Translations under genes and position numbers: made by a program
Notes under the pieces: model-generated
The model's input: only the letters and a program-made list of their open reading frames with translations
The model's database searches: none
What the model was told of the DNA's origin: nothing
DNA from: Myxococcaceae bacterium
GTDB taxonomy: Bacteria; Myxococcota; Myxococcia; Myxococcales; Myxococcaceae
DNA length: 64,000 nucleotides
Direction of reading: 5' to 3'
NCBI GenBank assembly: GCA_016793095.1
Contig: JAEUJQ010000016.1
Location: forward strand, 62,001-126,000
Shown: piece by piece, positions 27,972-40,308 of the stretch
Layout of the letters: each line of letters opens with the position of its first letter
How positions within the stretch are numbered: the first letter of the stretch is position 1

Positions 27972-30008
27972 GTGGGCACCTATCAGGTTGGCCGAAGACT
28001 CGTGGCGGCGTCGGGCGTGGTCGAGGCGCACCTCGGCGCCCACGATGGTCGCCCGCTGGTGATCTCACGGCTCTCGGCGCCCTGGTCGCAGGACGGCTCG
28101 TTCCTCGGGCGCTTCGGCGCCACGGCGGGAGCGTTGGCCGAGGTGCGCGTCGCCGAGGTCGCGGGGCTGGAGGACTACGGCCCGGGCGGAGACGGGTTCT
28201 GGTTCGCGGAGACGACCGGCGACGGCGAGCCGCTCCGTGCGCTGATGACCTCGCGGCTCGGCGCGCTCACGCCTGACGAGTGCGTCGCCATCGCTGAGCG
28301 CGTGGCCCAGGGCCTCGCGGCGCTGCACGCCATCGAGCTCGTCCACGGCGACGTGTCAGCCTCTTCCGTCTTCGTGGGGACGACGGGCACCGTTCAGTTG
28401 CTCCACACCGGCCTCGCGGTGGTCGCCGGTACGCACCCGAGCCGGGGGCCGGCGCGCAGTGAGCCGCACGCGATCGCGCCTGAGCAGCTGACGAGCCCGC
28501 CGACGCCGGCGACCGACGTGTTCCGCCTGGGCCTGCTGTTGCTCGAGATGCTCACGGCCCGCAGCCTGTTCGTCGCCGCTGATCCCCTGCATGTGCTCTC
28601 GCTGGCCGAGCGCTTCCAGGGCGTCGCCGCCTCGCAGCTGCTGGGCGTACCGGAGCCGCTCAAGCCGCTGCTGACCTCCCTCCTGCACCGCGACCCGCTG
28701 GCGCGTCCCCCGGCAGACGAGGTGCCCAACGCGCTCCAGCTCGTCGCCGCGACGCTCAACCTGTCCACCGGCGACCCTGAGCTCGCGCGCGGGTTTCGTC
28801 GCCTCCTGCCCGAGCGTCCCCCCTCGACGCAGGTGACCGAGCTGCGACTGACGGCCCCGCGTCCTTCGAGTCCTCCCCCGCCACCGGCCTCTCGGGCTCG
28901 CGCATCGCCACCACCGCCCACGTCGCCCGGCGTCGTGGTGGGCCGGGTCGAGACGCGACGCATGACGTGGGATGAGCTCGAGGTGGTGCAGGAGGTCCGG
29001 TCGTCTCCCCCTCTGAGGCCCGCCATGAGGGAGGCGCTGATCGGGGAGCAGCTGCTCCGCACCGGCCTGCTCTCGGCGGCCCAGCTCAGCGCCGCGCAGG
29101 CGCGGTCGACGCTGCTGAACGTGCCGCTCAGTGAAGCGCTCGAGCTCGACGGCGTGGTGAGCGAAGACGCGCTCGTCGAGGCGCTCGGCGCCATCACCCA
29201 CACCAGTGTCGTGAGCGGCGCCGAGCTGGCCGGCCTCGATGGTGGGCGGGCGCCGCTCCACTTGATTCCGCAGGCCGACGCCGAGCGGCTGATGGCGGTG
29301 CCGCTGTCGGAGAAAGGGCGCGTCCTGGTGGTGGCGGTGCGAGACCCGCTCGAGGCGCCGCTGCTCGACGAGCTCAAGCGGGTGTCGGGCCGAACGGTGA
29401 AGGCGGTCCGCGCGGGCGAGCGGGCGCTGCGCAAGGCCGTCGCCCGGCTCTATGGCGCGAGCCCCGAGCCGCTCGCTCCGGGGGCCGACGCGCTCCCGAC
29501 CCTCGACGAGGTCCGTGCCGAACACGCCCGCCTCATCTCGGTCTCGGGGCTCGACGAAGGCCAGACGACCCTCGTCGAGGTGCTGCTCGCGGGGTTCGGC
29601 GATGCCGGCGCCGACGGCGTCGCGCTGCTCCAGTTGAGCGGCGAGCTCGCCCGGCGGCTCAAGGGCACCGACGCCGAGGTCGATCGGGCGCGCTTCGTCA
29701 CCGCCTGCGTCGCGGCGTTCAACCTGCGGGCGCGTCGGCCAGTCTGGGAGAGCCCCGCGGGCCCCGGCTTCGACACCACCCTCGGCGCCCTCGCCCCAGC
29801 GGTGCGCGCTCTGGTGCCCGGGCTCTTCGAGCCCTCCCGGCGACTGCCGAGCGACGTCATCGGCCTCGCGGTGCTGTGCACCTTCGCCTTCGCCCAGGCC
29901 GGCCAGTCGGCCTGTCCGACCCCGTGGCAGCCGGTGCTGGCGCAGCTCAAGAGCCGGCACTTCCCCTCGTCCGTGCTCGACGCTCTGGCTCGCACCCTCT
30001 CGTCGTGA
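27972..30008 (+). CDS. Pseudokinase fused to an MshEN-type domain
   Basis: 678 residues from GTG 27972. Residues 1-270 have the fold pattern of a Ser/Thr kinase, but key residues are absent: no VAIK lysine (VISRL), the HRD/N motif reads HGDVSASS (Asn replaced by Ser132) and DFG reads HTG (145-147); APE is kept. A Pro-rich linker (about 290-330) leads to an MshEN/GspE-N-like domain (about 348-493) with GEQLLRTGLLSAAQL and SEALELDGVVSEDAL motifs, the type that binds c-di-GMP in MshE. The last 180 residues are helical and unassigned. Likely a signal scaffold. The start is uncertain; the frame is open upstream. Confidence 0.8.
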   Translation: MGTYQVGRRLVAASGVVEAHLGAHDGRPLVISRLSAPWSQDGSFLGRFGATAGALAEVRVAEVAGLEDYGPGGDGFWFAETTGDGEPLRALMTSRLGALTPDECVAIAERVAQGLAALHAIELVHGDVSASSVFVGTTGTVQLLHTGLAVVAGTHPSRGPARSEPHAIAPEQLTSPPTPATDVFRLGLLLLEMLTARSLFVAADPLHVLSLAERFQGVAASQLLGVPEPLKPLLTSLLHRDPLARPPADEVPNALQLVAATLNLSTGDPELARGFRRLLPERPPSTQVTELRLTAPRPSSPPPPPASRARASPPPPTSPGVVVGRVETRRMTWDELEVVQEVRSSPPLRPAMREALIGEQLLRTGLLSAAQLSAAQARSTLLNVPLSEALELDGVVSEDALVEALGAITHTSVVSGAELAGLDGGRAPLHLIPQADAERLMAVPLSEKGRVLVVAVRDPLEAPLLDELKRVSGRTVKAVRAGERALRKAVARLYGASPEPLAPGADALPTLDEVRAEHARLISVSGLDEGQTTLVEVLLAGFGDAGADGVALLQLSGELARRLKGTDAEVDRARFVTACVAAFNLRARRPVWESPAGPGFDTTLGALAPAVRALVPGLFEPSRRLPSDVIGLAVLCTFAFAQAGQSACPTPWQPVLAQLKSRHFPSSVLDALARTLSS

Positions 30009-34549: not shown

Positions 34550-35656
34550 GTGCTGCGCCTCAAGGACGCCTCCGCGCTCTGCTACCGCTTCTTCGACGTG
34601 GCGGACTCGATCGACCTCGAGCGCTGCCGCACCATCCTCTCGGCCGAGGGCTCGGGCGTGCGCCGGGTCGGCTTCTCTCGCGCCGGCAGCGCCTGGCTGC
34701 AGCTCTCGAACGCGCCCCTCGCGGCCGACCTCGGCAGCCGCCAGCTCGAGGTGCTCGGCAAGGTGCGCGAGGTGCAGTTCGGCCTGCGGCTGTTCGATCA
34801 CGGCTGCCTCGCGGTCTGCTTCCGCGTCCCCATCGAGCCAGGCCAGTCGCTCGAAGAGCTCGCCCCCTTCGCCGACGAGCTCTACGACTCGAAGGCCATC
34901 GATCTGCTCGCGACGGACGAGCTGACCCGCCTGAGGACGCAGCTCGAGCCCGCCCTCGAGCGGCCGCACCTCTGGGACCAGCACGAGGAGTACACGGTGC
35001 TGTTCGTGCGCGCCTTCGAGACTACGCCGAAGGCCCAGGAGGTGCTGGAAGAGCCGGCCCTGGCGAAGCTCATCCTGGGCGAGGTCGCCGTCCCCGCGCT
35101 CTCGAAGGGTGAGACGGCCGAGGTGCTCGAGCACCACCACAGCTACACCGAGGCCGATCTCGCCCTGATGGAGTGGAACGCGTCGTTCCTCTACGAGCCC
35201 TCTGGCAGCGAAGACATCATCGACCTGCTCGAGATCGCGAACGCCCAGCTGCTCGAGCTGCGCTACTTCGACTCGGTGCTCGACGCCGAGCTGGCGCGGC
35301 TCTACGACACCATCGACCTGAACAAGGGGTCGATCCTCTTCAGCCCCTACCGCAAGGTGCTCCGCGGGCTGATGCAGACCGTCGTCGAGCTGTCGGAGTT
35401 CATCGAGCGGGTCGAGAACGCCCTCAAGATCGTCGGCGACGTCTATCTCGCGCGCGTCTACGAGAGCGCGGTCCGCCAGCTGCGCGTCAAGCAGTGGACC
35501 GAGCAGGTCTCCCGCAAGCACCGGCTGCTGCTGCAGACCTACGGCCTGCTCAAGGGCGAGGTCGATCACGATCGCTCGCTGACCCTCGAGGTGATGATCG
35601 TGGTGCTGATCCTCCTCGAGATCCTGATGGCGCTCGTGCGGGTGGGGGGCCACTGA
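34550..35656 (+). CDS. RMD1/DUF155-family membrane protein
   Basis: 368 residues matching the RMD1 family known from yeast mitochondrial/meiotic proteins: an N-terminal alpha/beta part, a central segment with [11 protein letters not shown] and [12 protein letters not shown], a long coiled-coil-like helix and a single C-terminal hydrophobic helix ([18 protein letters not shown]) that anchors it. The biochemical function of the family is unknown. Its stop overlaps the start of the cyclase gene (TGATG), so it is probably translated together with it. Confidence 0.82.
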
Positions 35657-37203
35657 TGCAGCCGACCGACGTGCACCAGCGTGACGGGGCCACGGGTGGT
35701 GTAGCCTCAGGGCTCCCCGAGATGACGGACCCCCATCGACGCTTCGGCGATCTGCTGGTCGAGCTCGGCCTGGTCACCGTGGGCCAGGTGGCCGAGGCGA
35801 TGGCGCTGCAGCCGCTCACCGGGGCCCGCGTCGGCGAGGCCTTGTTGTCGCTGGGCTACCTGACGCGCCCCCAGCTGCAGCGCGCGCTCTCGCTCGCGAT
35901 CTCGAGGGGCGACACGGTGGTGCTCGACCGGCCTCCGCTGGGCGAGATCCTGATCGGGCTGCAGTACGTCGATCAGCCAGCGCTCGAGCAGGTGCTGGCG
36001 CGGCAGCGCACCGATGGGCGCAGGCTGGGAGAGCTGCTGATCGAGCTCGGCGCGTGCACGCACCAGCAGGTCTACGAGGCGCTCGGGCTGCAGCAGCGCA
36101 TGGGCGCCGGGCCCGACGCGCCCCGGCGTTCGACGGCCGAGATCCACGCCGCCCCGACCGGCCGTCGCGTGATGGTGGTGGACGACAGCGACCTCGCGTG
36201 CTCGCTGGTGCAGGAGGGCCTGTCGGAGCAGGGCTACGACGTGGTCGCCTTCTCGGACCCGTACCTCGCCCTCGAGCAGCTCGATGTCATCAAGCCCGAC
36301 CTCGTGTTGACCGATCTCGACATGCCGGGCCTCGACGGCGCTGAGCTGTGCCGGCGCATCAAGACCGGCCCGAGACGTGAGCTGCCGGTGCTGGTGCTGA
36401 CCGCCAGCGACGGAGACGAGCAGCGGGTCGGCCTGCTCCGGAACGGCGCTGACGACTTCGTTCGCAAGGGCGCGTCGATGGACGAGCTGGCCGCCCGCAT
36501 CGGCTCCGTGCTTCGCCGCACCACCCAGACCGAGCGCATGCGCAGGCTCTTCGCGCGCTACACCTCGGACGCGGTGGTGGAGGAGGTGCTGAGGAAGGGC
36601 GACGTCGCCCTGCTTGGCGAGAAGCGCGTGGTGACCGTGCTGTTCGCCGACGTGCGGAACTTCACCGGCTTCGCCGAGCGCCTGGAGCCCGAAGAGGTGA
36701 TGGCGCGGCTCAACGAGGTGCTCGGGCGCCTCGCCGACATCGTGCTCGAGTGGGGCGGCACGCTCGACAAGTACCTCGGCGACGGGCTGATGGCGGTCTG
36801 GGGCGCGCCCATTCGGCGCGACGATGACGCCCAGGCTGCCGTGTCGGCGGCCCTGCAGATGATGGCCGAGGTGCGTGAGCGGAACGCGGCTCGCGAGCAG
36901 GATGATCGCCTCGAGCTGGGCCTCGGCCTCAATACCGGGCCGGTCATCGCCGGCAGCATCGGCAGCGCGCGGCGCACCGAGTACACGTGCATCGGCGACA
37001 CCGTGAACGTCGCGTCGCGCCTCTGCGCGCTCGCGGGGCCGGGTGAGATCCTGGTCGGGAGCGGCACGGCAGAGCTGCTGCGCACCCTCGGTCCGCTCGA
37101 AGAGCTCGCGCCCGTCCGGGTCAAGGGCCGGCTCGCCCCGGTGCCGCTCTTCAAGGTGACGTCGGCGCTGAACGACGCGCTCGACACCCAGCGACGGTTC
37201 TGA
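35656..37203 (+). CDS. Class III adenylate cyclase with four MshEN-type motifs and a receiver domain
   Basis: 515 residues. The N-terminus has four tandem copies of a 24-residue motif (about 29-52, 58-81, 94-117, 123-146), each of the form RxGxLLxxLGxxxxxQLxxALxxQ, as in the c-di-GMP-binding half of MshEN domains. A receiver domain follows (about 171-288; Asp176/177, phospho-acceptor Asp220, Thr249, Lys271), then a class III cyclase domain (about 325-500) with metal Asp332 and Asp376, base-selecting Lys372 and Thr444, and Asn451/Arg455. All residues needed for ATP cyclisation are present. It could join c-di-GMP, phosphorylation and cAMP signals. The ATG overlaps the RMD1 stop. Confidence 0.9.
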
Positions 37204-37220: not shown

Positions 37221-37625
37221 ATGGCGCGTGACGTGCTGAACGAGGGGTACACGGCAGAGCAGCTCAAGCAGAACCGGGCGTCGATGTTGCTGACGGGGGG
37301 CTCCGAAGCCGACCGGCGCGCCTTCGCGGTCGCCGCCGCCCAGGCCCTGCCCCACGAGCCGTTCCTCGAGGTGCGCGAAGCGGCGCAGGTGGCCCGTGCT
37401 CTGAAGGGCCATCGCGGGACCGTCTACATCCCCGACGCCACCACCCTGCCGGCCATGACCCAGCGCGAGCTGGTGCGCGTGCTCCGCGAACACGAGGAGC
37501 GCCCGCGCTTCGCCCTCGGCCTGCCCGGCTCCGTGGAGGCCGCGGCCGACAAGGGCCTGCTCACCGATGACCTGCGCTACTGGCTTCGGACCGCAACCGT
37601 GGACATCAAGAAGAAGGCCCGCTGA
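37221..37625 (+). CDS. Small protein resembling a degenerate sigma-54 activator AAA+ domain
   Basis: 134 residues, not firmly recognised. The order of motifs follows the AAA+ core of sigma-54 activators but in worn form: LLTGGSEADRR in place of Walker A (no GK[ST]), GTVYIPDATTLPAM in place of GTLFLDEVGELP, QRELVRVLREHE, and a terminal LTDDLRYWLRTATVDI that matches RxDLYYRLxxxxI. No GAFTGA loop or DNA-binding domain. It follows the cyclase gene after 17 bases with GGAGGAG upstream. A regulatory decoy or partner role is speculation. Confidence 0.7.
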   Translation: MARDVLNEGYTAEQLKQNRASMLLTGGSEADRRAFAVAAAQALPHEPFLEVREAAQVARALKGHRGTVYIPDATTLPAMTQRELVRVLREHEERPRFALGLPGSVEAAADKGLLTDDLRYWLRTATVDIKKKAR

Positions 37626-38724: not shown

Positions 38725-39429
38725 GTGAAGAGGCTCGTGCCGGTCGCAGCGCTGGCCTGGTTGCTCGCCAGTGTCGAGGGCTGCAATTGCGGCCGCTACG
38801 ACGCGCGCTACGACGAGCTCTGCGATGCGCTCTGCCCGCACCTGGAGGACGGCGGAGCACTCATCGCGGGAGGCGCTGGAGGCGGACGGCAAGCAGGCGG
38901 GAGCGTTGGCGCCGGGTCCGCCGGAGGGAAGGACGGGGCTGCCGGCGGGAGGGGCGGCGGCGGGGGCGTGTTCGCGGGCGGCGGAGCGTTCGCAGGCGGC
39001 GGTGCGTTCGCGGGCGGCGGAGCGTTCGCAGGCGGCGGAGCGTTCGCAGGCGGCGGAGCGTTCGCGGGCGGCGGTGCGTTCGCGGGCGGCGGAGCGGTCG
39101 CAGGCGGCGGAGCGTTCGCAGGGGGCGGTGCGGTCGCAGGCGGCGGCAGCGGCAGCTGCATCGGAGACAATGCGCCGTGTCAGCCTGGGGTGGGGTGTTG
39201 TAGCGGCCGGTGCCTCAACGGGATCTGCGGCTCATCGACCTGTGGCGGCACCTGTTCGAACGCCGGCAGGGACTGCTGCCCCGGGACGTTCGGCTTCAGT
39301 GAGTGCAGGACCACGACTGGTGGTGCTTGTCGCGCCTCGACCGATTGCTGCACGGGTTGCTGTGAAGGGTCGCCAGGTGGTCAGGCGCTCGGGGAGTGCA
39401 AGGGGCCAGGCTGTTTGCCGGTCGATTGA
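38725..39429 (+). CDS. Cys-rich Gly-spacer secreted protein A (paralogue pair)
   Basis: 234 residues. Signal-like N-terminus ending VEGC, immediately followed by NCGRYDARYDELCDALCP, which is almost identical in the next gene. Residues about 78-140 are GGGAFA hexapeptides. The C-terminal 90 residues have about 16 Cys with CC pairs (GVGCCSGRC, RDCCPG, TDCCTGCCEG), like knottin or granulin-type disulfide domains. The GTG start has GAAGGAGG five bases upstream. Likely a surface-anchored or secreted protein; function unknown. Confidence 0.8.
   Translation: MKRLVPVAALAWLLASVEGCNCGRYDARYDELCDALCPHLEDGGALIAGGAGGGRQAGGSVGAGSAGGKDGAAGGRGGGGGVFAGGGAFAGGGAFAGGGAFAGGGAFAGGGAFAGGGAFAGGGAVAGGGAFAGGGAVAGGGSGSCIGDNAPCQPGVGCCSGRCLNGICGSSTCGGTCSNAGRDCCPGTFGFSECRTTTGGACRASTDCCTGCCEGSPGGQALGECKGPGCLPVD
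38955..39150 (+). repeat. 18-base minisatellite coding GGGAFA
   Basis: About ten units of 18 bases (GGCGGCGGAGCGTTCGCA type) in frame, with GAVA variants near the end. Confidence 0.85.
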
Positions 39430-39438
39430 AGGAGACGC

Positions 39439-40308
39439 ATGCGGCGATTCGCCCAACTCGTCGTCGCGCTGTGGCTGACAAGCCTGATGGGCCAGGGCTG
39501 CAACTGCGGTCGCTACGACGCACGGTATGACGAGCTGTGCGAGGCGCTGTGTCCGCTGCTCGATGGAGGCGCTGCGGCTGGAGGTCACGCAGGCGGCACG
39601 AAGCAGGGCGGAGGCTCGGTGACGGGCGGAGGCTCCGCGACGAACGGGGGTTCTGCGACGAGCGGTGGTGCGCCGACGAGCGGTGGTTCTGCGACCAGCG
39701 GTGGTGCGCCGACCAGCGGTGGTTCGCCGACGAACGGCGGGGCCGCGACGAACGGTGGCGCTGCGACGAGCGGTGGTTCGCCGACGAACGGCGGGGCCGC
39801 GACGAACGGCGGGGCCGCGACGAGTGGTGGCTCCGCGACGAGTGGTGGCTCCGCGACCGCTGGTGGCTCCGCGACCGCTGGTGGCTCCGCGACCGCTGGT
39901 GGCTTCGCGAACGGGGGTGGCTCCGCGAACGGGGGTGGCTCCGCGAACGGGGGTGGCTCTGCGAACGGGGGTGGCTCTGCGAACGGGGGTGGCTCTGCAA
40001 CCAGCGGCGGCTCTGCAACGAGCGGTGGCTCGGCGAGCGCAGGTGGCTCGACGTCCGGGGGAACCGGGGGTGGAGTTGCCTGCGCGCGCTCAGGTCAGTC
40101 CTGCGGCGCTCGTCCGTGTTGCCCCGGCCAGTCGCTGACCTGTCTGACCGCCTTCAACTTCTGCGCGATCGTCACACCCACCGGAGGCGGCGGGGGCGTC
40201 CTGGTCGGTGATGGCGGGTGCCGAGATCAGGGCTTCCAGTGCACGAACAGCGACCTGTGCTGCGAGGCGGATGGCGGCACCGTCTGTTGTCCCGGCGGAC
40301 AGATGTAA
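39439..40308 (+). CDS. Cys-rich Gly-spacer secreted protein B (paralogue pair)
   Basis: 289 residues. The signal-like N-terminus ends GQGC and is followed by NCGRYDARYDELCEALCP, as in protein A. The spacer (about 57-208) is a different hexapeptide family (GGSATS, GGSATN, GGAPTS, GGSANG). The C-terminus has two Cys clusters (CARSGQSCGARPCCPGQ and SDLCCEADGGTVCCPGG). GAAGGAG precedes the ATG. It begins 9 bases after protein A, so the pair is a tandem duplication in one unit. Function unknown. Confidence 0.8.
   Translation: MRRFAQLVVALWLTSLMGQGCNCGRYDARYDELCEALCPLLDGGAAAGGHAGGTKQGGGSVTGGGSATNGGSATSGGAPTSGGSATSGGAPTSGGSPTNGGAATNGGAATSGGSPTNGGAATNGGAATSGGSATSGGSATAGGSATAGGSATAGGFANGGGSANGGGSANGGGSANGGGSANGGGSATSGGSATSGGSASAGGSTSGGTGGGVACARSGQSCGARPCCPGQSLTCLTAFNFCAIVTPTGGGGGVLVGDGGCRDQGFQCTNSDLCCEADGGTVCCPGGQM
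39605..40060 (+). repeat. 18-base minisatellite coding GGSATx/GGSANG
   Basis: About 25 units of 18 bases with higher-order runs (ATS, then ATA, then ANG), suggesting several rounds of local duplication. Confidence 0.85.

Follow-up and report, generated by a model that had tools for sequence, protein, structure and literature searches.

The gene under discussion lies on the forward strand of the window (by which we mean the whole 64,000-nucleotide stretch of DNA analysed), in a reading frame, 35656-37203, that is open throughout and encodes 515 amino acids. An earlier note on this DNA had taken the frame in full; the frame indeed stands, but its first ATG is probably not the true start, judging by the orthologs. 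Residue 23 is either Met (29) or Val, encoded by GTG (14), that is, in 43 of 50 orthologs, and in the closest relative the first start codon of the frame falls at this same residue. A start at residue 23 (position 35722) is therefore likely and gives a probable gene for 493 amino acids, beginning 65 bases past the stop of the upstream gene. The features of the locus are as follows.

34550-35656, forward strand: upstream gene, 368 amino acids, hydrophobic C-terminus
35722-37203, forward strand: probable coding sequence, 493 amino acids (Met/Val at residue 23 in orthologs; start of the closest relative's frame)
35740-35898, forward strand: first MshEN_N unit (A), residues 29-81, formed by motifs I and II and predicted to bind c-di-GMP as site A (NF053729; phmmer match to 5HTL; four modelled helices)
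35935-36093, forward strand: second MshEN_N unit (B), residues 94-146, formed by motifs III and IV and predicted to bind c-di-GMP as site B (best NF053729 stretch; VIA-align; both Gln invariant)
36169-36501, forward strand: receiver domain, residues 172-282, phospho-acceptor Asp220 (Pfam Response_reg, 4.8e-24)
36478-36594, forward strand: helical connector between receiver and cyclase, residues 275-313 (two modelled helices, partly of low confidence)
36625-37131, forward strand: class III nucleotide cyclase catalytic domain, residues 324-492 (Pfam Guanylate_cyc, 2.3e-27)
37221-37625, forward strand: downstream gene, 134 amino acids (weak similarity to a sigma-54 activator domain, below cut-off)

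No family match was found for the upstream gene, which keeps its place beside the cyclase gene in close relatives and in some distant ones; the downstream gene is a neighbour in many relatives, and synteny around the cyclase gene is partial. Since the flanking genes on either side yielded no usable family, we gave up operon logic as a guide to function. Further along the window, at 38725-40308 on the forward strand, two adjacent related Cys-containing proteins share the motif CNCGRYDARYDELC near the N-terminus and carry long Gly-rich repeats (GGGAFA..., GGSAT...); neither belongs to a Pfam family.

The N-terminal part of the protein contains four 24-residue MshEN motifs, at residues 29-52, 58-81, 94-117 and 123-146, as the earlier note had proposed for residues 29-146. 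All four copies score 8 of the 11 strict consensus positions, while the best window elsewhere in the protein scores 7 and the next ones 5. The spacers within the pairs are exactly 5 residues long (PLTGA and RTDGR), the same as in Vibrio cholerae MshE (VcMshE), where a two-motif unit with such a spacer binds one c-di-GMP (PMC5013675). The motif pairs thus make two 53-residue units, both with the paired motifs and 5-residue spacer by which MshEN_N is recognized. Because of this pairing the four motifs amount to two complete predicted c-di-GMP sites, and the idea of four separate ligand sites can be dropped.

The earlier note had proposed to compare this region with MshEN by profile and by structure prediction, and both comparisons came out in its favour. 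The NCBIfam model NF053729 (MshE-related c-di-GMP motif, 53 positions) matches the protein twice (E 1.2e-25; 89 bits, the cut-off being 38), a sequence match far beyond chance; searching the genome with the same model returned the same two stretches, 35740-35892 and 35935-36093 of the window. A phmmer search against PDB found the MshE-c-di-GMP crystal sequence 5HTL (E 3.6e-8). Pfam MshEN (PF05157) has no match in the cyclase protein, where the receiver and the cyclase alone are above cut-off. Pfam misses MshEN here because PF05157 covers the C-terminal subdomain, and that is absent from our protein; the same model matches residues 73-156 of a second MshEN-cyclase of this genome, and not its N-half. 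We therefore do not accept the missing Pfam match as evidence against MshEN.

Modelled alone, the N-terminal part (mean pLDDT 82.6) shows eight helices arranged as 4+4, so that the MshEN units are predicted to fold as two four-helix bundles like those of MshE and PilF GSPII-B. The top Foldseek matches of this model are all MshE or PilF GSPII-B with c-di-GMP bound. Best among them is ligand-bound MshE, which superposes at an rmsd of 1.0 A and shares 44% identity across 57 columns (E 0.015, probability 1.00). By VIA-align, unit B gives Z 11.6 with 5HTL (rmsd 2.0 over 59 residues) and Z 11.7 with PilF GSPII-B of Thermus thermophilus (8PDK; rmsd 1.3 A over 57 residues). Given that helical bundles may reach such scores without kinship, Z alone is not decisive, and the weight lies in the agreement of fold and sequence. 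A full-length AlphaFold2 model built from 18 orthologs (mean pLDDT 77) contains the 4+4 helices, the receiver, the connector helices and the cyclase; its pTM of 0.46 makes the relative placing of the domains unreliable, and hence coupling between domains is not readable from it.

What follows the MshEN units is, by sequence, a complete receiver and an intact predicted class III adenylate cyclase, as the earlier note had also held in naming Asp220 and six cyclase residues. In 50 orthologs the receiver residues D176, D177, D220, T249 and K271 are invariant, so that the acidic pair, the phospho-Asp, the Thr and the Lys are all present. The cyclase residues Asp332, Lys372, Asp376, Thr444 and Asn451 are likewise invariant, and Arg455 is found in 49 of the 50. 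With Asp332 and Asp376 for metal, Asn451 and Arg455 for the transition state and Lys372 and Thr444 for the substrate, the domain has the full residue set of class III. We take the Lys372/Thr444 pair to mark the class IIIb adenylate cyclase type, where it would serve adenine recognition; CyaC has the same Lys/Thr pair. The closest cyclase folds are CyaB of P. aeruginosa (Z 27.0) and CyaC of Spirulina platensis (Z 26.1), which share the catalytic fold at 30-34% identity but have other regulatory domains and no MshEN. The connector at residues 275-313, as modelled, is the probable transducer between receiver and cyclase.

Do the MshEN units bind c-di-GMP? Among 49 orthologs (those carrying the MshEN region), mean entropy at the predicted contact positions is 0.32 bits in unit A and 0.35 bits in unit B, against 0.67 in the core and 0.95 elsewhere (permutation p 5e-5). 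The predicted ligand contacts are hence the most conserved MshEN positions, above even the hydrophobic core: the contact glycines and three of the four Gln are invariant, and the hydrophobic contacts are also kept. Three deviations are fixed. In site A, Ala81 replaces the second Gln (Gln61-equivalent) in 48 of 49 orthologs, while both Gln of site B are invariant; in motif III, Pro94 stands for the stacking Arg (Arg9-equivalent), the position being Pro or Ala across orthologs, and the turn Gly (Gly18-equivalent, residue 103) is Lys, Arg or Gln in 48 of 49. The first motif position is Leu in 33 of 49 orthologs, and most unit A orthologs are non-Arg there.

Published PilF work suggests by analogy that such deviations can be tolerated. 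There are MshEN members that bind c-di-GMP with Lys, Leu or Pro at motif position 1: in PilF GSPII-C one of the motifs begins with Pro and the ligand is still bound, and GSPII-B, with Lys and Leu at first positions, binds tighter than MshE. A Leu-type change at this position has been linked to higher affinity. A Gln to Glu change at the second-Gln position of PilF lowered affinity 77-fold and still left a KD of 460 nM. Nor is the C-subdomain needed, as isolated VcMshEN_N 1-62 binds c-di-GMP without it (KD 0.35 uM; Wang et al. 2016, PMC5013675). Since the contacts are the most conserved positions, binding is strongly predicted in spite of the three fixed deviations, and we consider it likely that c-di-GMP binds at one site or more.

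Of 145 genomes of the order, 83 carry a single ortholog at E<=1e-60, and all of these belong to one family; the gene is single-copy in most Myxococcaceae, Archangium and Hyalangium species included. In a profile search of 195 genomes of the phylum, full-length proteins were confined, among the matches listed, to the window's own family, and the best matches outside it begin near the receiver. The MshEN unit is absent from the nine REC-cyclase relatives inspected, eight from other families and one from the same. An older or wider fusion thus finds no support among the matches listed. A plasmid search gave, among the matches listed, partial receiver or cyclase matches alone, none covering 80% of the query.

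The genome itself has 20 GGDEF, 20 class III cyclase and 23 MshEN-motif matches; given the GGDEF matches, c-di-GMP is probably made. About 5.7 kb upstream in the window (28002-30005, forward strand) a protein kinase domain is followed by MshEN (PF05157, 2.5e-14) with degenerate N-terminal motifs, a fusion of an already known kind. Elsewhere in the genome (locus L003, 1492-3156, contig G000:C1) a MshEN unit with near-canonical motifs shares one protein with an HD-GYP-type phosphodiesterase region, and the C-terminal part of that protein is receiver-like. The second MshEN-cyclase (locus L089, 1021-3234; G000:C51, about 237520-239733) has full-length orthologs in about 15 relatives; it resembles our protein in having an MshEN-related N-terminus and a class III cyclase, but its motifs are degenerate (no Arg, binding Gly or Gln), MshEN_C and GAF are present, and there is no receiver.

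Profile, predicted fold and contact conservation together support MshEN_N modules, predicted to bind c-di-GMP, on an intact receiver-adenylate cyclase. The best explanation, which we favour by somewhat more than even chances, is a putative c-di-GMP- and phosphorylation-controlled enzyme: a response-regulator adenylate cyclase of the cytoplasm, with the domains arranged as (MshEN_N)2-REC-class III cyclase. Each N-terminal four-helix unit would clasp one c-di-GMP between its two motifs, and Asp220 would be phosphorylated by a histidine kinase; the two events would alter how the REC-helix-cyclase core packs or dimerises, and cAMP synthesis from ATP would rise or fall as a result. That c-di-GMP and phospho-Asp220 jointly alter a dimeric cyclase is the likeliest reading. 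The domains, the motif pairing, the deviations and the conservation of catalytic and contact positions all come out of sequence and structure prediction; that c-di-GMP binds, which site is dominant, that the cyclase changes on binding, and in which direction, we infer. More tentatively, the protein could be a dual-input adenylate cyclase of most Myxococcaceae: two c-di-GMP sites in tandem, differing in affinity, would set cAMP output jointly with a phospho-receiver, and c-di-GMP would be linked to cAMP directly, by allostery.

How does this compare with known systems? Like the N-terminal domain of VcMshE (5HTL; Wang et al. 2016), each unit has 53 residues with two motifs and a 5-residue spacer, a predicted four-helix bundle and most of the contacts; here, however, two units stand in tandem without the MshEN_C subdomain or the ATPase, and Ala81, Pro94 and Gln/Lys/Arg103 deviate. 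PilF GSPII-B has the same fold and a non-Arg first motif residue, as most unit A orthologs do, but it stands in an ATPase context with the C-subdomain and both Gln present. The nearest precedent for an MshEN-gated enzyme is NfrB of E. coli, where MshEN binds c-di-GMP and thereby, as the authors of that work infer, activates the glycosyltransferase allosterically; it is another non-ATPase enzyme under MshEN control, though of a different type and without a receiver.

The kind of fusion is not new. MshEN-REC and MshEN-adenylate/guanylate cyclase fusions, the same domain combinations going by the main text, are listed by Wang et al. 2016 (PMC5013675) beside fusions to HD-GYP and Ser/Thr kinase, with 22 MshEN genes in Myxococcus xanthus. 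The earlier note tied MshEN chiefly to secretion ATPases, a view that is therefore out of date. A later M. xanthus study counts 17 MshEN proteins and calls c-di-GMP binding untested for the members it discusses. In the main texts of the part of the literature that we covered, we found no report in which a c-di-GMP-gated adenylate cyclase is put to the test. The cross-regulation of c-di-GMP and cAMP is described as extremely limited in a 2024 review of the two messengers, and the links given in the passages considered are transcriptional or indirect only. In our opinion, the parts are ordinary and the combination is suggestive: a well-conserved candidate for direct c-di-GMP gating of cAMP synthesis. 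If c-di-GMP gates the enzyme, myxobacteria, which are known for their swarming and their fruiting bodies, would have one messenger in direct control of how the other is made. As these bacteria are rich in MshEN proteins whose binding has been called untested for at least some, the question is timely.

It could be argued that the MshEN units do bind c-di-GMP, but that their role is to bring the cyclase close to a partner (a pole, a pilus base or a diguanylate cyclase) and that they leave catalysis unaltered. Indeed, little is understood of how MshEN affects enzyme output, PilB2 of Clostridium perfringens bound c-di-GMP with high affinity while its ATP hydrolysis was unchanged (PMC11656802), and NfrB binds a specific diguanylate cyclase. 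We nevertheless hold placement alone to be unlikely, as direct fusion to a dimer-dependent enzyme through a receiver and helices would favour allostery.

Alternatively, the units may descend from MshEN but no longer bind the nucleotide, serving as protein-interaction modules, with phosphorylation alone controlling the enzyme. The fixed deviations (Ala81, Pro94, Lys/Arg/Gln103) speak for this, as do the non-binding relatives XpsE/GspE and PilF GSPII-A; the latter is near-consensus and does not bind even with the consensus restored in the full domain. A further point is an ortholog that keeps REC-cyclase without the N-terminal region: its frame (L058, 3009-4115, and L078, 4537-5643) starts at about residue 154, both MshEN units are missing and the neighbour genes are kept, through either natural loss or assembly error. 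However, with the contact glycines and three of four Gln invariant and the contacts outranking the core, we find loss of binding improbable, the more so as the frequent Leu at the first motif position resembles the affinity-raising change of PilF. The truly broken second MshEN-cyclase has a different conservation pattern, its contact-to-other entropy ratio being 0.57 in genomes where the two units of our protein give 0.16 and 0.18, a modest control because contact positions are also buried.

Compared with both, direct c-di-GMP control remains our preferred reading, and an unrelated helical repeat mimicking the motif, which the earlier note had named as its refutation, is very unlikely indeed: the Pfam result (no MshEN match, a weak FumaraseC_C match below cut-off) and VIA-align matches to fumarases (Z about 7.5-7.6) might suggest it, but PF05157 covers the absent C-subdomain, the fumarases score below MshE and PilF, and NF053729, phmmer, Foldseek and VIA-align, all ranking MshE/PilF first, largely refute it. 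As a separate observation, the MshEN_N helical hairpin at 35818-35892 of the window (residues 55-79) weakly resembles the C-terminal domain of fumarase C in sequence and structure, and the two possibly share a common small fold.
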